This document shows, piece after piece, positions 1,270-12,752 of a stretch of DNA of 26,236 nt (the first letter of the stretch is position 1; each line of letters starts with the position of its first letter). The notes below the pieces were generated by a model, which was not told the DNA's origin, did no database searches, and saw only the letters and a program-made list of their open reading frames with translations. Source of the DNA: a virus; IMG/VR virus record IMGVR_UViG_3300046336_000025, positions 1-26,236 of that record, one strand, 5' to 3'. The position numbers and the translations under genes were made by a program.

Positions 1270-1962
1270 ATGACAACATTTACCGTTGAACTTCTGCAAA
1301 AGACTTTACCTTCCAATCTGCGAACTTCAGCCACACAAGGTATGGTGGACATGCTCAACAACGTGAGCAACAACCAACAAGAAGCTGAACTGATCCGTGA
1401 AAACTTTCTGGGCTACACGGCTGTACTGTCTGAAGGAAAGTACAAGACAGAGGATTATTTAAATGCTGTGAAGTACGTAAGCTTCAAACTGATGAAGTGC
1501 AGCAACGAAGAAGCCTATGTGAAAACTTTCCCTCAACGCTATCAGCGTATGGTGAAAGAAGGGGTAAAGCCCAAGGACATTGGCTCGTATGTGTATGCGT
1601 ATAGCAAAAACAAATTGGTCAACCGAATCATGGAACAGACGATGGTTCCAAGTTGGGTGCTGAACCAAGACATTTTCCAAGAAGCAATCAACACACAAGC
1701 TAGTCTGATGCGTGACCCAGATGTAAGCCCCAAGGTGCGAAGTGATGCAGCCAACAGTTTACTAACCCACTTGGCCAAACCAAAAGAGGCAGGGCCACTG
1801 ATCAATCTGGACATGCGCGATACGTCAGGCATGAAGGAAATGAAAGAGTTGCTGGTCCGTATGGCACAACAACAACAGGGGCTGATCAAAGAAGGTGTCA
1901 CAGCCAGAGAGATTGCTGCTGCAGTCATCATTGACGTGGAGGCTAAAGATGGCTCTAATTAA
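1270..1962 (+). CDS. Terminase small subunit (N4 gp69-like)
   Basis: A 230-residue protein directly upstream of the large terminase and overlapping it by 14 bp, the usual place for a small terminase, which recognises phage DNA and recruits the motor. Residues ~60-125 contain a helical region including a KYVSFKLM segment and a FPQRYQRM segment, then KNKLVNRIMEQTMVPSWVLN at about 112-131. This pattern matches what I recall of small terminases from N4-like and related marine podoviruses. A helical C-terminus rich in Gln/Met/Lys follows (185-230). Ribosome binding site AAGGAACAAG lies 5-14 bases upstream. The assignment rests mainly on position plus family resemblance. Confidence 0.75.
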   Translation: MTTFTVELLQKTLPSNLRTSATQGMVDMLNNVSNNQQEAELIRENFLGYTAVLSEGKYKTEDYLNAVKYVSFKLMKCSNEEAYVKTFPQRYQRMVKEGVKPKDIGSYVYAYSKNKLVNRIMEQTMVPSWVLNQDIFQEAINTQASLMRDPDVSPKVRSDAANSLLTHLAKPKEAGPLINLDMRDTSGMKEMKELLVRMAQQQQGLIKEGVTAREIAAAVIIDVEAKDGSN

Positions 1963-4588
1963 ACAAGAGATTGATCAATGGCTGGACAGTGTGGACTACA
2001 CCATACTGAACAGTCCTGATTACATGCCAACTGAGTTTGCACTGATCTTCATGAACTGGATCAAGTTGGTCAATGGTGGAACAGGTGAGACTCACAAGAC
2101 TCCACCTGTACATCTGGCCATGTTGGACAAAGTTGCACAAGGGGTGAGTGACTACATTGCAAACCTTTGCTTTCGTGGCGCAGCAAAGACTACATTGTTC
2201 ATGGAGTACCTGACATTGTTTGTGGCACAGTTTGGTTACTTACCTAACTTTGGAAGAGTTGAGGGAATGATCTATGTGTCAGACTCAATGGACAACGGCG
2301 TGAAGTCTGCACGAAAGAACATTGAGTTCAGATACAACAACAGTGAGTTCCTACAGTACTGGATTCCATCAGCTAAGTTCACAGACAATTATTTGGAGTT
2401 CAAGAACAGAGACAACATGATGTTAGGCGTCAAGATGTTTGGTGCCAAGGCGCTTGCTTTAGGCACGCTGTTGTATACCCCCGAAGGGGATACCACTACT
2501 ATCGGTGCTTGTCAGATAGGTGATTACATTATTGGGGCGAATGGTATGCCCACACAAATCAAAGCAAAGAGTGTGGTGTTTCACAAACCCATGTACCAAC
2601 TGAGTCTAGCGGATGGACGCTCTCTTCGAGTAAGTGAGGACCACTTGAATCAAGTTTGGCTCAAGAAATTCAACAGTAATCTAGCAGTGCCTCCAACATA
2701 CCAAGAAGAAACACTTAGCACATTGGAACTGTTAGCCTTACCTTTGCATAAGACTGAACTATGGCAATTAGATAATTATAGTAAAGGGTATGAAACCAAA
2801 CGCCCATTGGTTTGGGTAGAAAACTGTAAACCTGTACGATTCACAGAAAAAGAATTACCACTTGACCCCTACACTTTAGGATTGCTGCTGGGTGATGGAG
2901 CAATGTCTGTTAAGGCTTCAGGTCAATTTAGTGTTCGTCTTGTCGCTCACCGGGATGATTGGTTTACATATGAACAACACGTTCCTTATGCGTTGGGCAA
3001 ACAACAGATAGACAAACGTAATACGAATGTTGTAACTAGAACCCTACTCGGAATGAAATCTGTTATTGCTGCTTTAGGTATCAATACCCACGGGGATCGT
3101 AAAGCAATCCCTTATGAGTATTTCTTTGGTTCTGTTGAACAGCGTTTGGCTTTACTGCAAGGACTTATGGACACCGATGGTACTGCTTCAGTATCAGGTA
3201 AAACAACCTACACATCCAACAGTTTGAAATTGGTAGAAGGGATTGTTTCCTTGGTTCGTTCTTTAGGAGGTACAGCTACTCTACGAAAGTCGGGGGTAAA
3301 GAGTTGGCAAGCCCATTTGAAATTAAATCTTCAAATGTTTCGTTTGGACAGAAAATTGCGTCGTCAAAAAACTCATAGGCACATGCTTGTATCTGTCGAG
3401 TCTATTAAACGAATTGCTGACGAACCTAGTCAATGTATTGCTGTGGATAACAAAGATCGACAGTTTATTGCAGACGATTTCGTAAGAACCCACAACACTG
3501 GTCTGCGGGGGACTAAGATTTTTGGTAAGCGTCCTGTCCTGTGTGTGCTGGATGATTTGGTGAGTGATGATGATTCCAAATCTAAAGTAGCAATGGAGTC
3601 GATCAAGGATACTGTTTACAAGGGGGTGAACCATGCTCTTGATCCAACACGTCGCAAGGTGATCTTCAATGGCACACCCTTTAATAAGGATGACATTCTG
3701 ATTGAGGCTGTGGAATCTGGTGCTTGGGATGTGAACGTATGGCCAGTATGTGAAAGATTTCCGTGCACAAAGGAAGAGTTCGTGGGTGCATGGGAAGATC
3801 GATTTACGTTTGAGTACGTGTCGAACCAATATGACATGGCTGTGAAAACAGGTAAGGAAGCTGGCTTCTTCCAAGAGTTGATGCTTCGGATTACATCTGA
3901 AGAAGAACGTCTGGTGCAAGAAGGTGAGCTTCGTTGGTATGAGCGTGCCAAGTTATTGGCCAAAAAATCCACATTCAACTTTTACATCACGACTGACTTT
4001 GCCACATCAGCCAAACAAACGGCTGACTTTTCAGTGATCAGTGTCTGGGCGTACAACTCCAACGGTGATTGGTTCTGGGTTGATGGCATCTGTGAACGTC
4101 AAACAATGGAAAAAACTTTGGCAGATTTGTTTCGCTTGGTTCAGCTTTACAAACCACAGTCTGTTGGTATTGAGACTTCTGGCCAACAAGGTGCATTCAT
4201 TAAATGGATACAGGGGGAGATGCTGCTTAAAAATACATACTTCAACTTGGCTTCATCACGCAAGGGTGGGGAACCCGGTATTCAATCTCAAGGTGACAAG
4301 TTGACCCGATTCACCCTTGTTCTTCCTTGGTTCAAGCTCGGGAAGGTATATTTCCCTGAAGAAATGAAACGAAGCGTTATCATGGGCATCTTCATGGGAC
4401 AACTAAGACTTGTCACCAAGTCTGGTATCAAGGGTAAAGATGATTGTATTGATACAATCTCCCAACTTTTCTACCTTACCCCGTGGAAACCTTCTGAATC
4501 TGCCCCTGTCACTCCTGATGAGAACAGTCTGTGGGAAGAACAACAGGAAGTGGAAGCTCTTAGTGGACTTGCCTCTTACATTGTTTAA
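1949..4588 (+). CDS. terL: Terminase large subunit with an intein (N4 gp68-like)
   Basis: The DNA-packaging motor and headful nuclease, 879 residues as translated and 530 after removal of a 349-residue intein (residues 168-516). ATPase: a Walker A-like FRGAAKTT at residues 75-82 and a Walker B-like CVLDDLV with D535/D536. Nuclease: D683 (YITTDF), E742 (VGIETSG) and D831/D832/D835 (KGKDDCID), the RNase H-like triad expected in TerL. The exteins join as GAK|TGLRGTK, which reads as the conserved N4-type segment before Walker B, so the precursor must splice to give a normal motor. The ATG at 1949 is chosen over upstream in-frame codons because GGAGG lies 6-10 bases before it; it overlaps the small-subunit gene. 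Without splicing, the insertion would separate the ATPase motifs. Confidence 0.95.
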   Translation: MALIKQEIDQWLDSVDYTILNSPDYMPTEFALIFMNWIKLVNGGTGETHKTPPVHLAMLDKVAQGVSDYIANLCFRGAAKTTLFMEYLTLFVAQFGYLPNFGRVEGMIYVSDSMDNGVKSARKNIEFRYNNSEFLQYWIPSAKFTDNYLEFKNRDNMMLGVKMFGAKALALGTLLYTPEGDTTTIGACQIGDYIIGANGMPTQIKAKSVVFHKPMYQLSLADGRSLRVSEDHLNQVWLKKFNSNLAVPPTYQEETLSTLELLALPLHKTELWQLDNYSKGYETKRPLVWVENCKPVRFTEKELPLDPYTLGLLLGDGAMSVKASGQFSVRLVAHRDDWFTYEQHVPYALGKQQIDKRNTNVVTRTLLGMKSVIAALGINTHGDRKAIPYEYFFGSVEQRLALLQGLMDTDGTASVSGKTTYTSNSLKLVEGIVSLVRSLGGTATLRKSGVKSWQAHLKLNLQMFRLDRKLRRQKTHRHMLVSVESIKRIADEPSQCIAVDNKDRQFIADDFVRTHNTGLRGTKIFGKRPVLCVLDDLVSDDDSKSKVAMESIKDTVYKGVNHALDPTRRKVIFNGTPFNKDDILIEAVESGAWDVNVWPVCERFPCTKEEFVGAWEDRFTFEYVSNQYDMAVKTGKEAGFFQELMLRITSEEERLVQEGELRWYERAKLLAKKSTFNFYITTDFATSAKQTADFSVISVWAYNSNGDWFWVDGICERQTMEKTLADLFRLVQLYKPQSVGIETSGQQGAFIKWIQGEMLLKNTYFNLASSRKGGEPGIQSQGDKLTRFTLVLPWFKLGKVYFPEEMKRSVIMGIFMGQLRLVTKSGIKGKDDCIDTISQLFYLTPWKPSESAPVTPDENSLWEEQQEVEALSGLASYIV
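2450..3496 (+). mobile_element. Intein with LAGLIDADG homing endonuclease in TerL
   Basis: A 349-residue in-frame insertion. The N-terminal splicing block starts at Ala168 (ALALGTLLYTPEG) instead of Cys or Ser. Block B has S229..H232 (SEDHLNQVW). Block F has Cys496 (SQCIAVD) exactly 20 residues before the terminal Asn516. The end is Thr514-His515-Asn516, followed by Thr517 as the +1 residue. Ala/Leu start, Cys at F:4 and Thr at G:5 are the hallmarks of class 3 inteins, where the block F Cys is the first nucleophile; the usual Trp of block B is not in its typical place, but a Trp lies at 237. Two dodecapeptide motifs, LGLLLGDG (310-317) and GLMDTDGT (405-412), keep their acidic residues (D316, D408/D410), so the homing endonuclease looks intact. 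Splicing is inferred from these residues. Confidence 0.93.
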
Positions 4589-4599
4589 GGTTTAGATAC

Positions 4600-5298
4600 A
4601 TGCAACTCAATGACTTGTTTCACATGCTTGCCTACGGTGAGTTATCCAACCACCATATAGCCAGTGCTGGTGATGGTACTTTAGCTCTGACCAAGCAACC
4701 ACAGATCGTTCACTTTGCCAATGAAGCCCTTGTACGCTTGTACACGAAGTTCATTCTCAAAGAAAAAGATTGCATTGTTGAACTACAGGAGGGCATTACG
4801 ATATATCGTCTAACACCTGAGTATGCAACTACAAGTTTTGATAGTTCAATAGCCAGTGCTCCTTACATTCGGGACACTCTGAATGAACCTTTCCAAGATG
4901 ACGTGCTTAAAGTCTTGGCCGTGTACACCAATTATGGTGGCCATCGTCCTTTAAACGATGCAAACAATTGCTGGTCAGTTAATACGCCGAGTGCTAAGAC
5001 TTTGCAAGTGAACCTTGCACGCACTGATGAAGTGTTAGCAGTAACTTATCAAGCAAAGCATCCCACACTGGATGATACAGATCAAGAGATTGAACTACCA
5101 GCAACTTTGCATGGGGCTTTGACAGCATTCATTGCATACAAGGTGTTTTTTAACATGAACACACCAGAGTCTCAGGCCATCTCTCAAGGTCACTTGGCCA
5201 TGTTCAATAATATTTGTGCAGACACTACAGAAGCAGATGCGTTAAACTTAAGCATCAGCGGTGTCAACACTCGTTTTAACCTAGGTGGATGGAAATAA
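4600..5298 (+). CDS. Tail/adaptor protein (N4 gp67-like)
   Basis: A 232-residue protein immediately after the large terminase, 11 bp away, the same relative position as N4 gp67, a virion protein of the tail/connector region. The N-terminal ~60 residues look helical (MQLNDLFHMLAYGELSN, then HFANEALVRLYTKFILKE), followed by a beta-rich middle and a helical segment around 165-205. This organisation, an early helix pair for docking on a portal ring followed by a beta domain, fits gp11/gp67-type adaptors as I recall them. There is no strong ribosome binding site besides AAGG about 10 bases upstream. The role in joining portal to tail is inferred from synteny. Confidence 0.7.
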   Translation: MQLNDLFHMLAYGELSNHHIASAGDGTLALTKQPQIVHFANEALVRLYTKFILKEKDCIVELQEGITIYRLTPEYATTSFDSSIASAPYIRDTLNEPFQDDVLKVLAVYTNYGGHRPLNDANNCWSVNTPSAKTLQVNLARTDEVLAVTYQAKHPTLDDTDQEIELPATLHGALTAFIAYKVFFNMNTPESQAISQGHLAMFNNICADTTEADALNLSISGVNTRFNLGGWK

Positions 5299-5300
5299 TC

Positions 5301-5744
5301 ATGGCTATTGTAAAAGCTCCAGACTTGAGTACCAGCAATCTTTATGACACCGTGGGGCATCAGACTGTTGTAATTATTGATCCTGTGTCGGGTGCCCCTG
5401 TTGCACCAGCAGTAGTTGGTTTAACCAATACTGAGTTGCGTGCTGTACCTGTAGCTGTGGCTATACAGTCCCGTGTGTGTTTGGGTACGCAGTTAATTAC
5501 TGCACTCAGTTCTTCTGTTGCCACTAGTCTTACTATTCCTGTGGGTTCTTTGGTGGCAGAGATTCAAGCTGATGGTGGTGTACTACGTTTACGCCAAGAT
5601 GCGGGCACACCTACGGCAACTAGAGGTTGGCGTGTTGATGACGGGATGAGTGTGACAGTTGATAGTGTTCTTACTAGTGTTCGCCTGCTGGCACAGTCTG
5701 GTAGCACAACCCGCGTGCAAATTGCTTACTTCGATAAGGTGTAA
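5301..5744 (+). CDS. Small beta-rich virion protein, probably tail-associated
   Basis: 147 residues, almost entirely beta-type sequence (Val, Thr, Ala, Leu, Gly) with a conserved-looking NTELRAVPV segment at about 45-53 and a C-terminal stretch of alternating hydrophobics (VDSVLTSVRLLAQSG). Such NTELRA-type proteins are commonly found beside phage fibre genes. No enzyme motif is visible. The ATG at 5301 is preferred to the in-frame ATG at 5289, which sits right against the GGTGG that would serve as ribosome binding site. It lies between the adaptor and the fibre, so it may decorate the tail or tip; this is inference. Confidence 0.6.
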   Translation: MAIVKAPDLSTSNLYDTVGHQTVVIIDPVSGAPVAPAVVGLTNTELRAVPVAVAIQSRVCLGTQLITALSSSVATSLTIPVGSLVAEIQADGGVLRLRQDAGTPTATRGWRVDDGMSVTVDSVLTSVRLLAQSGSTTRVQIAYFDKV

Positions 5745-5747
5745 GCA

Positions 5748-7415
5748 ATGAGTCGCCTAGGCAGAAACTTACGTGGTAATACAAAAAAGGTTCCCACATT
5801 AACACAGCAGGTCATCGCCATCCTGCGTTTATTTGGCTCCGACGCTCACATCTACATCCCGGGCGTTGGTCAGCTAAACGGCTTAACCGCTGGCAACTAT
5901 CTTGACAGTGCTGGAACTACGGGTGCGACGGTTGATAACCCGGTGGGGTTAGTGCTAGATGCGGCTGGTGGGTTGGGGCCGGAGTTGGTGACAAATGGGG
6001 GGTTTGATACCAGCGCTGGTTGGGCGCTTGTCAATGGAGCCGCTGTCAGCGGCGGACAGCTATCTCTGCCAGCTGGTGATGCAACAGCAATCTTTGCGGG
6101 TGTGTCATGCACATCTGGCCTGACTTACAAGTTTGAGTTTGATTATGTGAGCGGCTCTGGTACGCAGTTCATCAACATTCAGGCTGGCTCCGCCATTTTT
6201 GGCGTGATCACAGCCACGACACCTCGCCGTTACGCCGGTTTTATTAGAGCTGGGGCAACTGACAACATCAAGATTTGGCAAGATGGTGGAGTGGCTGGGT
6301 CTGCCGTCATCGACAACATTTCCGTCCGCGAAGTAACAGGCATCCCCGCATCCCAAGCAACAACGGGCTCGAAGCCTATATTGCGCAGGGGGTTGGTGAA
6401 TCTTTTGACTTGGAGCGGGGATTACACACAAGGGGCGCAATGGATTCAGGGCGGCCTGTCTGTGGCAAAAAACGCGATTGGCATTAGTGGGGGCTCGAAC
6501 ACTGCTTGCACCGTGACCATAGCAGCCCCTGCGCACGCACTATATACAGCCGGGGCGGCTATAGCGGTGACCCCCCTTACGGCATACACGTTTGCTTTTT
6601 ATGCAAAACGGGGCACTGCATCAGAACTGAAATACAGCGTGAAGAACGTAACTGTAGGTGGCGATATTATCCCGGTAACAAGCTATTACGCACAGACAAA
6701 CTCGACTGATTTCAGCCTAATAGTTGTAAATTTCACAGCGCCTGCTGGTTGTACGCGATTGAACATATTCCCGTTGCGCGATAGTGTGGCTACCGGAACA
6801 GTGATTCTCGATGCGGCACTGATTGCCCAAGGAACCTACACCGCCGCCCAAATCATCGCAGCAGGCGGCATACCATTAACTACAACAGCCCCAGCAAGCT
6901 CATCGCAGGGGCCTAGCTACTGGCAATTTGACGGTAACAATTCTCTAGCTTTGTCGAGTGTGCCGTTTCAGATGGCGGATGACCATTGTGTTGTTGCTGG
7001 CTTCTCTGCAACCAATCTAGCAGGCTATCCAATTGTTGTTGCGGGCGCACAAGGCTCAGGCCCATCCGCAGTTTGTCTGTTGTACGCTGAATCTGACGGG
7101 AAGGTCGTAATTCGCTGGGTCGATGACGCAAACCAGGCTGTGTACGCTACGTCGCCCATTGGGTTGGTAAGCAGCGGTAAGATGGCTGTGGCGGTTGGGA
7201 GAAAAGTGGGGGCTACGGTATCCACGCGGTTTAACGGTATACCTGGCGGTGTCGGCCTAGCACCGACTGGCCCATGTACTGTTGTTAATAGTTACTTCGG
7301 GGGAGCCTTTTCTGGCCCAATCTACCTAGTAATCGCCATCAAAGGCACAGTCACCAACGAGCAACTAATCAAGCTAGAGAAGTTCGTGGCCCTTATGTCA
7401 GGAGTCACGCTATGA
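5748..7415 (+). CDS. Tail fibre/adhesin with carbohydrate-binding-like domains
   Basis: 555 residues. Residues 1-35 form a basic N-terminus and short hydrophobic helix. At about 70-195 there is a domain starting PELVTNGGFDTSAGW and ending VIDNISVREV, the typical edges of a carbohydrate-binding beta-sandwich. A second unit at about 215-370 begins NLLTWSGDYTQ and resembles the phage head spike fibre domain. The C-terminal ~155 residues (YWQFDGNNSLALSS...) look like a concanavalin/LamG-type sandwich. The likely role is binding host-surface glycans. The gene is clearly more GC-rich than the packaging genes (hand counts of single lines give about 57-63% versus 40-50%), which suggests module exchange. 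It overlaps the next gene as ATGA. Confidence 0.75.
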   Translation: MSRLGRNLRGNTKKVPTLTQQVIAILRLFGSDAHIYIPGVGQLNGLTAGNYLDSAGTTGATVDNPVGLVLDAAGGLGPELVTNGGFDTSAGWALVNGAAVSGGQLSLPAGDATAIFAGVSCTSGLTYKFEFDYVSGSGTQFINIQAGSAIFGVITATTPRRYAGFIRAGATDNIKIWQDGGVAGSAVIDNISVREVTGIPASQATTGSKPILRRGLVNLLTWSGDYTQGAQWIQGGLSVAKNAIGISGGSNTACTVTIAAPAHALYTAGAAIAVTPLTAYTFAFYAKRGTASELKYSVKNVTVGGDIIPVTSYYAQTNSTDFSLIVVNFTAPAGCTRLNIFPLRDSVATGTVILDAALIAQGTYTAAQIIAAGGIPLTTTAPASSSQGPSYWQFDGNNSLALSSVPFQMADDHCVVAGFSATNLAGYPIVVAGAQGSGPSAVCLLYAESDGKVVIRWVDDANQAVYATSPIGLVSSGKMAVAVGRKVGATVSTRFNGIPGGVGLAPTGPCTVVNSYFGGAFSGPIYLVIAIKGTVTNEQLIKLEKFVALMSGVTL

Positions 7416-8915: not shown

Positions 8916-10541
8916 ATGTTGTTGCCCGACAAAGTATCTCAATTAGTCGCTGATTCCAATGTTGTCAATGCTTGGGTGCATGGCCCTTCTACGGGCGTTG
9001 GTAGTGAAGTTCTTACTGACGGGGGACTTGTGCGTACCCCTGCTAAATTAATTGCAGACACTGAAAGTGAACTTCTAGGGGGTACTCTTTTTAGGAATGC
9101 AATGGGACAACCCGCAGGTGCGGGACTCGTTGGCAATTTACCTTCTGGTACTATCTCTGCATCCAATGTACAAGCTGCAATCAATGAGCTTGATAATGAA
9201 AAAGCTAGTTTAGTTGGATTGGCTGCACCCACTGGCGCATCTTTAGTGGGCTACCTCCCCGCTGGAACTGATGCGGTTGCTACTACCGTGCAGGATGAGT
9301 TACGTACAGGGTTTGTAAGCTCACTACAGTTTATGTCTGATGCCCAAAAAGCAGACGTTCTTTCGCGCACCAAACTACTTGACGTTACCGCACCCCTTCA
9401 AGCAGCTTACACATACGCACAAAGCATTAAAAAGTCGTTACATATCGTTGCAGGCGCGTACAAACACTCCGGTATTACAAAATCATCATCTTTTGACCAT
9501 GTGAGTATAGTTGGGGGTGGTGCAGACTGTACTGAATTTGACTACAGTTCTTTTGGCTCCGTATCGGCAATTACAATAAGTGGTGGGTCAGGGTCGGTAA
9601 CTTTAAGTCGAATTGTTGGGATTCAATTTAATGGCGCAGCGAACGGTATAGGCATTACGCTAGTTGGTCAGGGTGGGGTACGACTAACAGATTGCAGATT
9701 TGGTCAAAATGCTAGAGGTATTGTTTTACACAACCAAAATTCTGGTGAGTTTTCTGAATTTAACGTTGCAGAAAATTGCGAATTTACTTCTGCCTGTGCG
9801 ACGGCTTTAGAGTACAGAGTTACAGCAGGAAATCAGAGTTTCCACGGTAGTGGTTTGCAGAATTGTTTAGTAAACGCCAAATCAAGCACAGACCCTGTTA
9901 TCTTGGTGGGTAATGGCTGCTTTGTATATAACGCCCCACTTTCTGCAACTGTGTTCCCTTCGCCCACTGGGGCCAGTATTATTTACAACAAAAACGTAAG
10001 CGGTTCTCTTAACAACAACTGGAACGGTCATATCAATCTTGAGCCGAGTAATTCGGCGGCGGTAAGTATTGCTGTAAATGATTCTGGAGCACGCACCTTC
10101 TTTTCTGGAGGAGTGACTTCAGTGAACAACAACTGGAGTCTTAATGACTGCATACTTGTAGATTCATTGACAATACGAACAGATGGTTCAGTGAACTACA
10201 CACCGAAGCCTTACACATTCACAAAAACAGATTGTGTGAATGGCTCCGTAGTTGATTTAAAAATCATAGATACATACAGCGGGTATGACAGCGGCCTAAT
10301 GTTGAATATCACGCTTGCTGGTAACAATTATCGCTATACACATGTGTGCGCAATGTCACTCGACAACGGGGTTGGTGGTGGCAATCAGATAGCGCAGCTT
10401 GCAATGCTACAGCAGTTCAATTCAGCCGGATGGGGGTCTTCTACGTTCTCAATAGATGGGAGCAATCAATTAGTAATTACAAATGCGGCTGGGGGTTTTT
10501 CTGTTACGGCAATTGTTGCTGTATCTCCGATTGGTGCGTAG
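8916..10541 (+). CDS. Tailspike 1, beta-helix receptor-binding protein
   Basis: 541 residues. Residues 1-112 are an anchor domain colinear, without gaps, with the start of the next gene (VNAWVHGP, RTPAKLIAD, ASNVQAAINELDNEK, LVGLAAPTGASLVG). From about 190 the protein has the repeated Gly/Val/Asn pattern of a right-handed parallel beta-helix (HVSIVGGGAD, ITLVGQGGVRLTDCRFG, GIVLHNQNSGEF), typical of trimeric spikes that bind or cleave surface polysaccharide. The C-terminal ~130 residues are beta-rich and of unknown fold. Catalytic acids cannot be assigned. The ATG has AGGACAG 4-10 bases upstream. Confidence 0.8.
   Translation: MLLPDKVSQLVADSNVVNAWVHGPSTGVGSEVLTDGGLVRTPAKLIADTESELLGGTLFRNAMGQPAGAGLVGNLPSGTISASNVQAAINELDNEKASLVGLAAPTGASLVGYLPAGTDAVATTVQDELRTGFVSSLQFMSDAQKADVLSRTKLLDVTAPLQAAYTYAQSIKKSLHIVAGAYKHSGITKSSSFDHVSIVGGGADCTEFDYSSFGSVSAITISGGSGSVTLSRIVGIQFNGAANGIGITLVGQGGVRLTDCRFGQNARGIVLHNQNSGEFSEFNVAENCEFTSACATALEYRVTAGNQSFHGSGLQNCLVNAKSSTDPVILVGNGCFVYNAPLSATVFPSPTGASIIYNKNVSGSLNNNWNGHINLEPSNSAAVSIAVNDSGARTFFSGGVTSVNNNWSLNDCILVDSLTIRTDGSVNYTPKPYTFTKTDCVNGSVVDLKIIDTYSGYDSGLMLNITLAGNNYRYTHVCAMSLDNGVGGGNQIAQLAMLQQFNSAGWGSSTFSIDGSNQLVITNAAGGFSVTAIVAVSPIGA
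9157..9252 (+). repeat. 96-bp perfect direct repeat, copy in tailspike 1
   Basis: Identical over 96 bases to 10870-10965, by direct comparison; the bases just outside differ on both sides (t/a left, a/t right). It encodes the ASNVQ...GASLVG linker between anchor and body. Both copies begin 241 bases after their start codons and are in the same frame. Confidence 0.95.
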
Positions 10542-10628: not shown

Positions 10629-12752
10629 ATGTCTCTTACCAATAAAGTAGCCCAGTTTGATGCAGACAGTGATTTGGTTAATGCATGGGTGCACGGTCCT
10701 GCCTCTGGTGCAGGCAGTACTATCACCACAGATTCAGGAACTGTACGCACACCTGCCAAACTGATTGCTGATATTGAATCAGCAGTTGTTAATGCTTCTG
10801 AAAATCTTGTTTTGTTTGTTGGTTCAAGTGGTGCTGGATTGGTGGGAACAATCCCTGCTGGAACACTTACTGCATCCAATGTACAAGCTGCAATCAATGA
10901 GCTTGATAATGAAAAAGCTAGTTTAGTTGGATTGGCTGCACCCACTGGCGCATCTTTAGTGGGCTTTACTTCCGTAGGCAGTGGCGCGGTTGCAAGAACA
11001 GCAGCAGCAAAACTCCAAGAAAATTTGACCGTAGCAGATTACGGCGCACTTAGTGACGGAACCACAGATGATTATGCAGCCGTGGTTGCTGCCAATACCG
11101 CAGCAGGAAGCAAGCCACTGATGTTTACTGGTGTCACACATATTGGCACAACCATCACAATTACGGCACCTATTTTTGACACGATGGCACAGATATTCAG
11201 CACTACAAGCCTAGTGACGATTGACAACGGTCAGCCCGTTCGTCCAGAGTGGTTTGGGATGGGTAACGGCAACATTAATCTGGCAGTGCAGGCTTTGCCA
11301 GCATCGGGCGGCATCGTCCAACTTGAAGATAAAACATACCCACCACAGGGCTACGTGTACGGCACGAGCGGTGCGTTCAAGTATTTGAGCAAAGCTAATG
11401 TGTCTATCGTTGGCCGCAAGATGCCATCGCTTGCGCTAGATTGCAAGTCGCTGGTGGGCGGAACCATCATTCAAGATATGTTTCTTGTCTACGCAGATAA
11501 CTTTGAAATGAGGGATGTTGGTATTGATAGCGGAAAAACCTTTGTTGATTCCGTATATGCTGGTGCAGCCCGCGAAGGGCTTTTGCTTACGTACCCGAGC
11601 GAGGCCATTAAAGCATCGTCCGCACTAAAGCGCCGTGCACGCCTACACAATGTAATTGGGCTGTGCTCTGCGCCAACTGCCTTGGTACACGCATGCATTG
11701 TTGGCGAGGGATACGCTGGAGTTACCTGTACGGGTGAAGTTGTAGGTTGCTACGGTACACACGGCATTATTATTAAGTGCACAGACGTTACAGCAAACAA
11801 ATTTACAGCGTATTGCAACGGTGGCGAGGGCGTAATTATTAAGTCAGACTCCCAAACTACTGCTATATCGTCAAACATTCAAATTGGCAAAATATCAACA
11901 TACGCAAGCGGCCCTGATGGATGGACACCCTACGCTGTGGCTACTACCGGATGGGGAACATTAATTGATGCGCCAGCTAACAACGTTAGTGTTTTGCAAA
12001 TTGGGGCCATCTACGACAGAGGGCATGCCACCGGGTTTGGTTTGAGCATTGCGCCGGGTAAGACAGTTGACAATCTGCAAATCGGCATGATTACGACAGA
12101 CGGAAACAGTTCGTGCTGTGTAGATTTAACAGCAGCTAATGGTGCGCAGTTAGCGAGATCGTCAATCAGTCAAATCGTGGCTAGAAACACCCCAGTCGGA
12201 CTTTATACAAACCTAAATGCAACTAACCCGGCAGTGCTTGGTACGCTAACAGTAGTAAATGCTGCGGTAGCCTACTTGGACGTTGGCAATGTGTCAGCGG
12301 CTATTGGTATTGTTGTGGCTGAGAACTGCACATCTGGTGCAGTCAGGTTGCTTGCAAACGCACGTCCAGAAATTGGCTCAATTATCAAGCTGGGGTCAAC
12401 AACTAACACTTACGCTACAGACTCTGGCGGTGTAGCACCTACGTTACTCAACGGCGCAACTAACGTTGCGGGCAATGAGCTATTTGGTGTCACGCATATA
12501 GGGTACGGTATTAACTTGCAGGGGTTGGTTATGCCTGGTACGTCTAACGTACTAGGTCAGTTACCCTTCTTTGCTCGGCCAGTAAAACCTAAGCGCTTTA
12601 TGGCACAGGGGTTCAACGGGGCTGCCGTATTTGCCGTCCCCGTTGTTATTGGCGCTGATGGCGCTGTTGTAGTAAATGAGGTAGCAGGGGGTATAGCCAA
12701 CTGTACGTCATGGATTTCATTAGCGGGTATTAATTACAGTCTAGAGAACTGA
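10629..12752 (+). CDS. Tailspike 2, pectate-lyase-like beta-helix protein
   Basis: 707 residues. The first ~112 match the anchor of tailspike 1. Residues ~138-155 read VADYGALSDGTTDDYAA, the hallmark FGAxxDGxTDDxAAI entry of pectate-lyase-superfamily tailspikes. A long series of Gly/Asn/Val-rich beta-helix rungs follows (about 240-560), and the last ~70 residues form a small beta-rich tip. The expected role is binding, and probably depolymerising, host capsule or LPS. A D(Q/T)DD-like start does not identify the substrate. The body is more GC-rich than the anchor (one hand-counted line near 11300 is 55%), consistent with a swapped receptor-binding module. The start has AGAAG upstream. Confidence 0.85.
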   Translation: MSLTNKVAQFDADSDLVNAWVHGPASGAGSTITTDSGTVRTPAKLIADIESAVVNASENLVLFVGSSGAGLVGTIPAGTLTASNVQAAINELDNEKASLVGLAAPTGASLVGFTSVGSGAVARTAAAKLQENLTVADYGALSDGTTDDYAAVVAANTAAGSKPLMFTGVTHIGTTITITAPIFDTMAQIFSTTSLVTIDNGQPVRPEWFGMGNGNINLAVQALPASGGIVQLEDKTYPPQGYVYGTSGAFKYLSKANVSIVGRKMPSLALDCKSLVGGTIIQDMFLVYADNFEMRDVGIDSGKTFVDSVYAGAAREGLLLTYPSEAIKASSALKRRARLHNVIGLCSAPTALVHACIVGEGYAGVTCTGEVVGCYGTHGIIIKCTDVTANKFTAYCNGGEGVIIKSDSQTTAISSNIQIGKISTYASGPDGWTPYAVATTGWGTLIDAPANNVSVLQIGAIYDRGHATGFGLSIAPGKTVDNLQIGMITTDGNSSCCVDLTAANGAQLARSSISQIVARNTPVGLYTNLNATNPAVLGTLTVVNAAVAYLDVGNVSAAIGIVVAENCTSGAVRLLANARPEIGSIIKLGSTTNTYATDSGGVAPTLLNGATNVAGNELFGVTHIGYGINLQGLVMPGTSNVLGQLPFFARPVKPKRFMAQGFNGAAVFAVPVVIGADGAVVVNEVAGGIANCTSWISLAGINYSLEN
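10870..10965 (+). repeat. 96-bp perfect direct repeat, copy in tailspike 2
   Basis: Second copy of 9157-9252, exactly 1713 bp (571 codons) downstream. Recombination between the two would remove 1713 bp and leave one intact, in-frame spike with the first anchor and the second body. Confidence 0.95.

Follow-up and report, generated by a model that had tools for sequence, protein, structure and literature searches.

A class 3-type intein with asparagine at position B:12 in the terminase gene of an N4-like phage

Introduction

Inteins are known from the large terminase subunit (TerL) of several phages. For the Vibrio N4-like phages VCO139 and JA-1, a TerL intein was reported in 2013 (PMC3670811); no class assignment for it was found in the available text of that publication. 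In mycobacteriophages, the class 3 inteins TerL1-c, -d and -e reside in terminase ATPase domains, and TerL1-c (Bethlehem) has been shown to splice as well as to cut the inteinless allele (PMC5050341). Class 3 inteins in TerL, as well as an intein in the TerL of Vibrio N4-like phages, are thus already published.

Here, an intein in the virus record IMGVR_UViG_3300046336_000025 is described. This stretch of 26,236 bases, a fragment of an N4-like phage, is called the window throughout. The VCO139/JA-1 inteins belong to the same TerL family and the same intein clade as the window intein, and share with it Asn at B:12, Cys at F:4, the THN|T junction and the LAGLIDADG motifs. They differ in their insertion at Walker A (RGIAK|TTL) and are only about 33% identical to the window intein (tblastn). 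TerL1-c, -d and -e share with it the class 3 type and the terminase ATPase location, but keep Trp at B:12, the WCT triplet being highly conserved there, and belong to other TerL families (PMC5050341). The class 3 DnaB-1 inteins Msm and Mch (PDB 6bs8, 6rix) have the Hint fold, Ala1, His65, the block F Cys and Thr-His-Asn in common with the window intein; in contrast, they are mini-inteins without an endonuclease and carry Trp67 where the window has Asn67. For AceL NrdHF, a class 3 mechanism without the signature Trp (MCT triplet) was demonstrated experimentally, whereas for the window the mechanism is read from the sequence. AceL NrdHF is split, has Met at B:12 and does not tolerate Ala there, while the window intein is unsplit, has Asn and contains an endonuclease (PMC7891396).

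The TerL gene and the boundaries of the insert

The TerL open reading frame contains no internal stop and is organized as follows:

1949..4588, + strand: TerL precursor gene, 879 aa, an orthologue of N4 gp68 that an intein interrupts; N4 gp68 can be aligned with both exteins
1949..2449, + strand: N-extein, 167 aa, with the Walker A-like FRGAAKTTL, ending GAK
2450..3496, + strand: intein, 349 aa, class 3-type, Asn at B:12
2450..2725, + strand: N-terminal splicing half (blocks A and B) with Ala1, Ser62, His65 (B:10) and Asn67 (B:12); boundary approximate
2825..3350, + strand: LAGLIDADG homing endonuclease domain, motifs LLLGDG and GLMDTDG, with D149, D241 and D243 kept; boundary approximate
3383..3496, + strand: C-terminal splicing half (blocks F and G) with Cys329 (F:4), Gln338 and Thr347-His348-Asn349
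3497..4588, + strand: C-extein, 363 aa plus stop, starting TGLRGTK, followed by the Walker B-like VLCVLDDL and the nuclease domain

The match to gp68 of Escherichia phage N4 covers 61% of the TerL query at ~71% identity and, together with the gene neighbourhood, places the protein among the N4-like (Schitoviridae) TerL proteins. Downstream of TerL, virion, portal and major head proteins are encoded, portal and major head being matched by PHROG profiles.

The intein starts with ALALGT and ends with RTHN, which is directly followed by TGLRG. N4 gp68 runs uninterrupted across this junction (GVKMFGAKTGLRGTK; GVKMFGAK-TGLRGTK) and lacks the 349-aa insert; removal of the insert gives a spliced TerL of 530 aa, the length of the intein-free N4 gp68. 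Among 79 TerL relatives in viral contigs, the site is uninterrupted in 76 and occupied by an intein in three. These intein-free homologues fix the junctions, so that the position proposed in an earlier note on this DNA (2450-3496) is exact.

One contig with an empty site (L089) is 96.8% identical to the window in DNA over the 501 bases upstream (N-extein) and 88.9% downstream (C-extein). Compared with it, no identity drop was seen beside the site, and no co-conversion tract was marked. The GC content of the intein (42.1%) is close to that of the exteins (44.7%).

Two further observations concern annotation and the remaining window. The intein alone (2450-3496, without exteins) matches the PHROG 'terminase large subunit' profiles phrog_36964, phrog_15 and phrog_19299; these profiles therefore contain intein sequence and could mislabel other intein-bearing proteins. 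The adjacent long open reading frames at 8916-10541 and 10629-12752 have common N-terminal modules (NAWVHGP..., SNVQAAINELDNEKASLVGLAAPTGASLVG) and diverge downstream, a pattern like that of paralogous tail appendage proteins.

Splicing domain and endonuclease

The PDB sequences closest to the insert are class 3 DnaB-1 inteins (6rix at 3.5e-10), and LAGLIDADG_3 (PF14528) is matched at 3.5e-9, above the Pfam cut-off. With both matches, a chance resemblance can be set aside. The intein was modelled with AlphaFold together with seven extein residues per side (mean pLDDT 92), and the model displays a Hint domain and a LAGLIDADG endonuclease. The model matches PI-SceI across both domains (5.1e-17); the splicing domain matches the class 3 MchDnaB-1 intein (TMt 0.76), and the endonuclease fold matches PI-SceI and I-DmoI.

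The intein carries Ala1 and hence no nucleophile at its first position, Cys329 at F:4, Thr347 of the invariant THN at G:5, and Thr517 at +1, where class 3 inteins have Ser or Thr. In TerL numbering, Cys329 is Cys496, and the end of the intein with Thr+1 is Thr514-His515-Asn516|Thr517. The translation of 1949-4588 bears out these residues and the Ala start as given in the earlier note, and its assignment to a class 3-type intein is supported by the alignments and the structure model, with class 3 DnaB inteins as nearest PDB entries. Ala1, H65, N67, C329 and THN are invariant across 16 aligned clade inteins. Two features count against class 3 splicing: the Trp at B:12 of the WCT signature of Tori and Perler is absent, with Asn67 in its place, and F:13 is Arg, where His is usual. 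By the residues that carry the mechanism and under the definition used in the survey of PMC7891396, which asks for a missing Cys1 and a Cys at C2:4 and does not require Trp, the window intein is class 3; by the strict WCT signature it is not.

Ala1 and Thr+1, taken alone, would also be compatible with a class 2 route, in which the N-terminal junction is attacked by Thr+1 itself, with no branch point at the block F Cys. This route is most improbable, since Cys at F:4 is present in all 200 surveyed relatives, together with Thr at G:5, and the nearest solved inteins use the block F Cys (PMC5222942, PMC7664689).

For the class 3 route, the following sequence of events is proposed. C329, aided by His65 and Thr347, would attack the bond after Lys167 of the N-extein, and the acyl group would then be transferred to Thr+1 (Thr517). 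Cyclization of Asn349 would release the intein, and ligation of the exteins would yield the 530-aa TerL. The LAGLIDADG domain may cleave intein-free terL at K|TGxRG, and repair would copy the intein in. Splicing, like DNA cleavage by the window copy, is thus a prediction from residues and relatives; in the literature search, no splicing or cleavage data for Asn-type members were found.

The endonuclease appears intact, as the earlier note had assumed: the acidic residues of both LAGLIDADG motifs (D149; D241, D243) are invariant among 16 relatives. In two close intein pairs, the dN/dS of the endonuclease is ~0.07-0.09. Two second-site inteins (contigs L320 and L323) have degenerate LAGLIDADG motifs (GDD/DTGG and GNG/DTNG) with intact splicing residues; such a loss of endonuclease acidic residues is as expected from the homing cycle.

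Asparagine at position B:12

The signature Trp of class 3 inteins sits at B:12, two residues past His B:10 (PMC5222942, PMC7891396). The H65-L-N67 of the window aligns without gaps to the H-L-W (Trp67) of the DnaB-1 inteins. The earlier note had suspected a possible variant with a displaced Trp at W237 (intein W70). The variant part of this suggestion holds and extends to the whole clade, whereas the displaced Trp does not: W70 is not conserved, being W, H, V, K, I, Q or T in relatives, and the Trp is replaced by N67. The window intein is, on its residues, an 'NCT' rather than a WCT variant.

In a survey of 200 relatives, which was seeded by the window intein family and includes near-copies, 162 have Trp at B:12, 32 Asn, three His, two Phe and one Met. 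Every intein of the close clade has Asn at this position, and each of the 42 clade inteins in the second tree has either Asn or His, the 10 outgroups having Trp. By these alignments, the Asn variant is clade-wide and not peculiar to the window phage. After removal of identical rows, 25 Asn-type sequences have in addition V61 and M48, and their residue at position 338 is polar (Q, S, T or E); 101 of about 134 Trp-type inteins have Leu there. His-type inteins have Ser at this position, Phe- and Met-type inteins Leu. The co-occurring residues at 67 and 338 suggest a changed core, in which both positions may be in contact. Since the tree contains a single polar/hydrophobic change, this co-variation represents one evolutionary event and is not statistically independent.

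Three class 3 inteins no longer spliced when Trp B:12 was changed to Ala (PMC5222942), and class 1 inteins and AceL NrdHF likewise need a large hydrophobic residue there (PMC7891396). This would fit a defective intein, in which Asn weakens the core and little or no mature TerL is formed by poor splicing, or a contig that represents a non-functional copy. However, packaging needs TerL, Asn is invariant in a clade that spans many TerL genes including those of cultured Vibrio phages, the catalytic residues do not vary, and Asn is accompanied by polar residues at 338. A defect is therefore very unlikely, and the insert is a real, mobile and probably active intein.

In the survey of 1701 class 3 inteins in PMC7891396, 6.1% deviate at the Trp position, and the Asn cases may already be counted among them. 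Among the publications searched, none was found to describe Asn-type class 3 inteins as a group.

One Asn-clade Walker A intein (contig L329, TerL open reading frame on the minus strand) starts with Ser instead of Ala (SLPITSKL) and keeps Cys at F:4; its nucleophile might be that of class 1 or that of class 3.

Distribution and the two insertion sites

Viral contigs were scanned for the motif V-S-E-D-H-x-N-x-V with both serine codon types, independently of overall similarity. This revealed 45 stretches, 40 of them with the motif in frame, some contigs appearing under two locus names. All 40 in-frame loci are TerL genes, and all lie either at the Walker A site (RGxAK|T) or at a second site (x|[TS]GxRG; K|TGxRG before Walker B). 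A DNA-level search in phages with the window intein gave no real relative.

Trees were built without positions 67 and 338. In the larger tree, a branch with 96% SH-aLRT places the Asn/His inteins on the same side; in the smaller, more carefully built tree, a pair of long Trp-type rows stands next to them without resolution. All 29 second-site inteins form one clade (100/97), which is nested with four Walker A inteins (99/88) and corresponds to one site change. Two TerL genes (contigs L011 and L312) each carry a pair of class 3-type inteins from the same clade, one in the Walker A site and one in the K|TGxRG site; in L312, the one at Walker A has His at B:12. The most parsimonious reading of the tree is that the Walker A site was occupied first and was followed by one jump to the second site, a direction that would follow from rooting on Trp-type inteins.

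Both sites could also have been colonized independently from outside. The K|T context is common to them, conserved ATPase motifs attract inteins generally (PMC5050341), and the direction of a jump depends on the root. Nevertheless, the second-site clade falls inside the Walker A inteins from the same TerL family, and the motif scan of viral contigs detected no Asn-type intein outside TerL among its in-frame loci. Independent colonization is thus the less likely history, although it deserves more weight than a defect or a class 2 route. Similarity of the targets was considered as a possible cause of the jump within terL. When the stretches of each gene are ranked by their DNA match to the Walker A site, the second site comes out rather high (median rank 5.5 of roughly 1,550; -9..+12, 86 genes), but this rank depends on the stretch chosen, with medians up to 34, and shared protein motifs could produce the match.

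Several further loci were observed. Inteins at a REFSK|S site (contigs L181 and L211) have His at B:12 and group with Walker A Asn inteins; L181 shows further intein matches in the same frame. An Asn-type Walker A intein is present in the N4-like TerL of two 73-kb contigs of a Lachnospiraceae MAG (L209 and L210), binned with a Bacillota genome. Vibrio phage 1.238.B (L085) has a second intein-like insert at about 4,850-5,900, in the nuclease part of TerL (HDDA|CSSGD ... VVHN|CDTISM); it is of the Cys1 type, its coding frame is apparently interrupted, and it is annotated as two hint-domain genes.

Recent mobility

The inteins of L004/L288, L005, L295, L298 and L302 are 99.0-99.5% identical in DNA, whereas extein identity among the three divergent backgrounds is 66-73%; the exteins of L005, L295 and L298 are 86.5-98.5% identical to each other. 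Between L004 and L005, DNA identity is near 100% within the intein and drops to about 75-85% at both ends. Near-identical inteins in the divergent exteins of five contigs indicate that the family has recently been mobile. Together with the empty sites, this agrees with the mobility among N4-like terL genes that had been put forward in the earlier note. The evidence for a sweep comes from these relatives, the nearest relative of the window intein being only about 54% identical in protein.

Discussion

Boundaries, residues, clade, site distribution and the recent spread of relatives are established at the level of sequence. On this basis, it is highly probable that the window insert is a mobile intein splicing by the class 3 route, within an NCT clade that would have occupied the Walker A K|T site first and moved once to another K|T site, which lies between the Walker motifs A and B. 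The clade-wide Asn variant, the two-site history with its site jump and the sweep are new, to the extent that this could be checked.

A more far-reaching proposal, for which we see somewhat less than an even chance, is a mechanistic subclass of class 3. Here, polar Asn/His and Gln/Ser/Thr/Glu would replace the core Trp-Leu pair (B:12 and 338), hydrogen bonds rather than Trp packing would hold the Cys-His-Thr triad, and the subclass would have spread via one intragenic jump between two similar K|T sites in the packaging ATPase.

Trp at B:12 counts as a class 3 signature, and its loss stops splicing in the tested members. A whole clade with Asn, including inteins of cultured vibriophages, makes the role of B:12 directly testable, and the inteins of this clade are candidates for protein ligation. 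The same clade documents the spread between distant phages, an apparent site jump and the presence of two inteins from one family in a single gene, events which are seldom caught.
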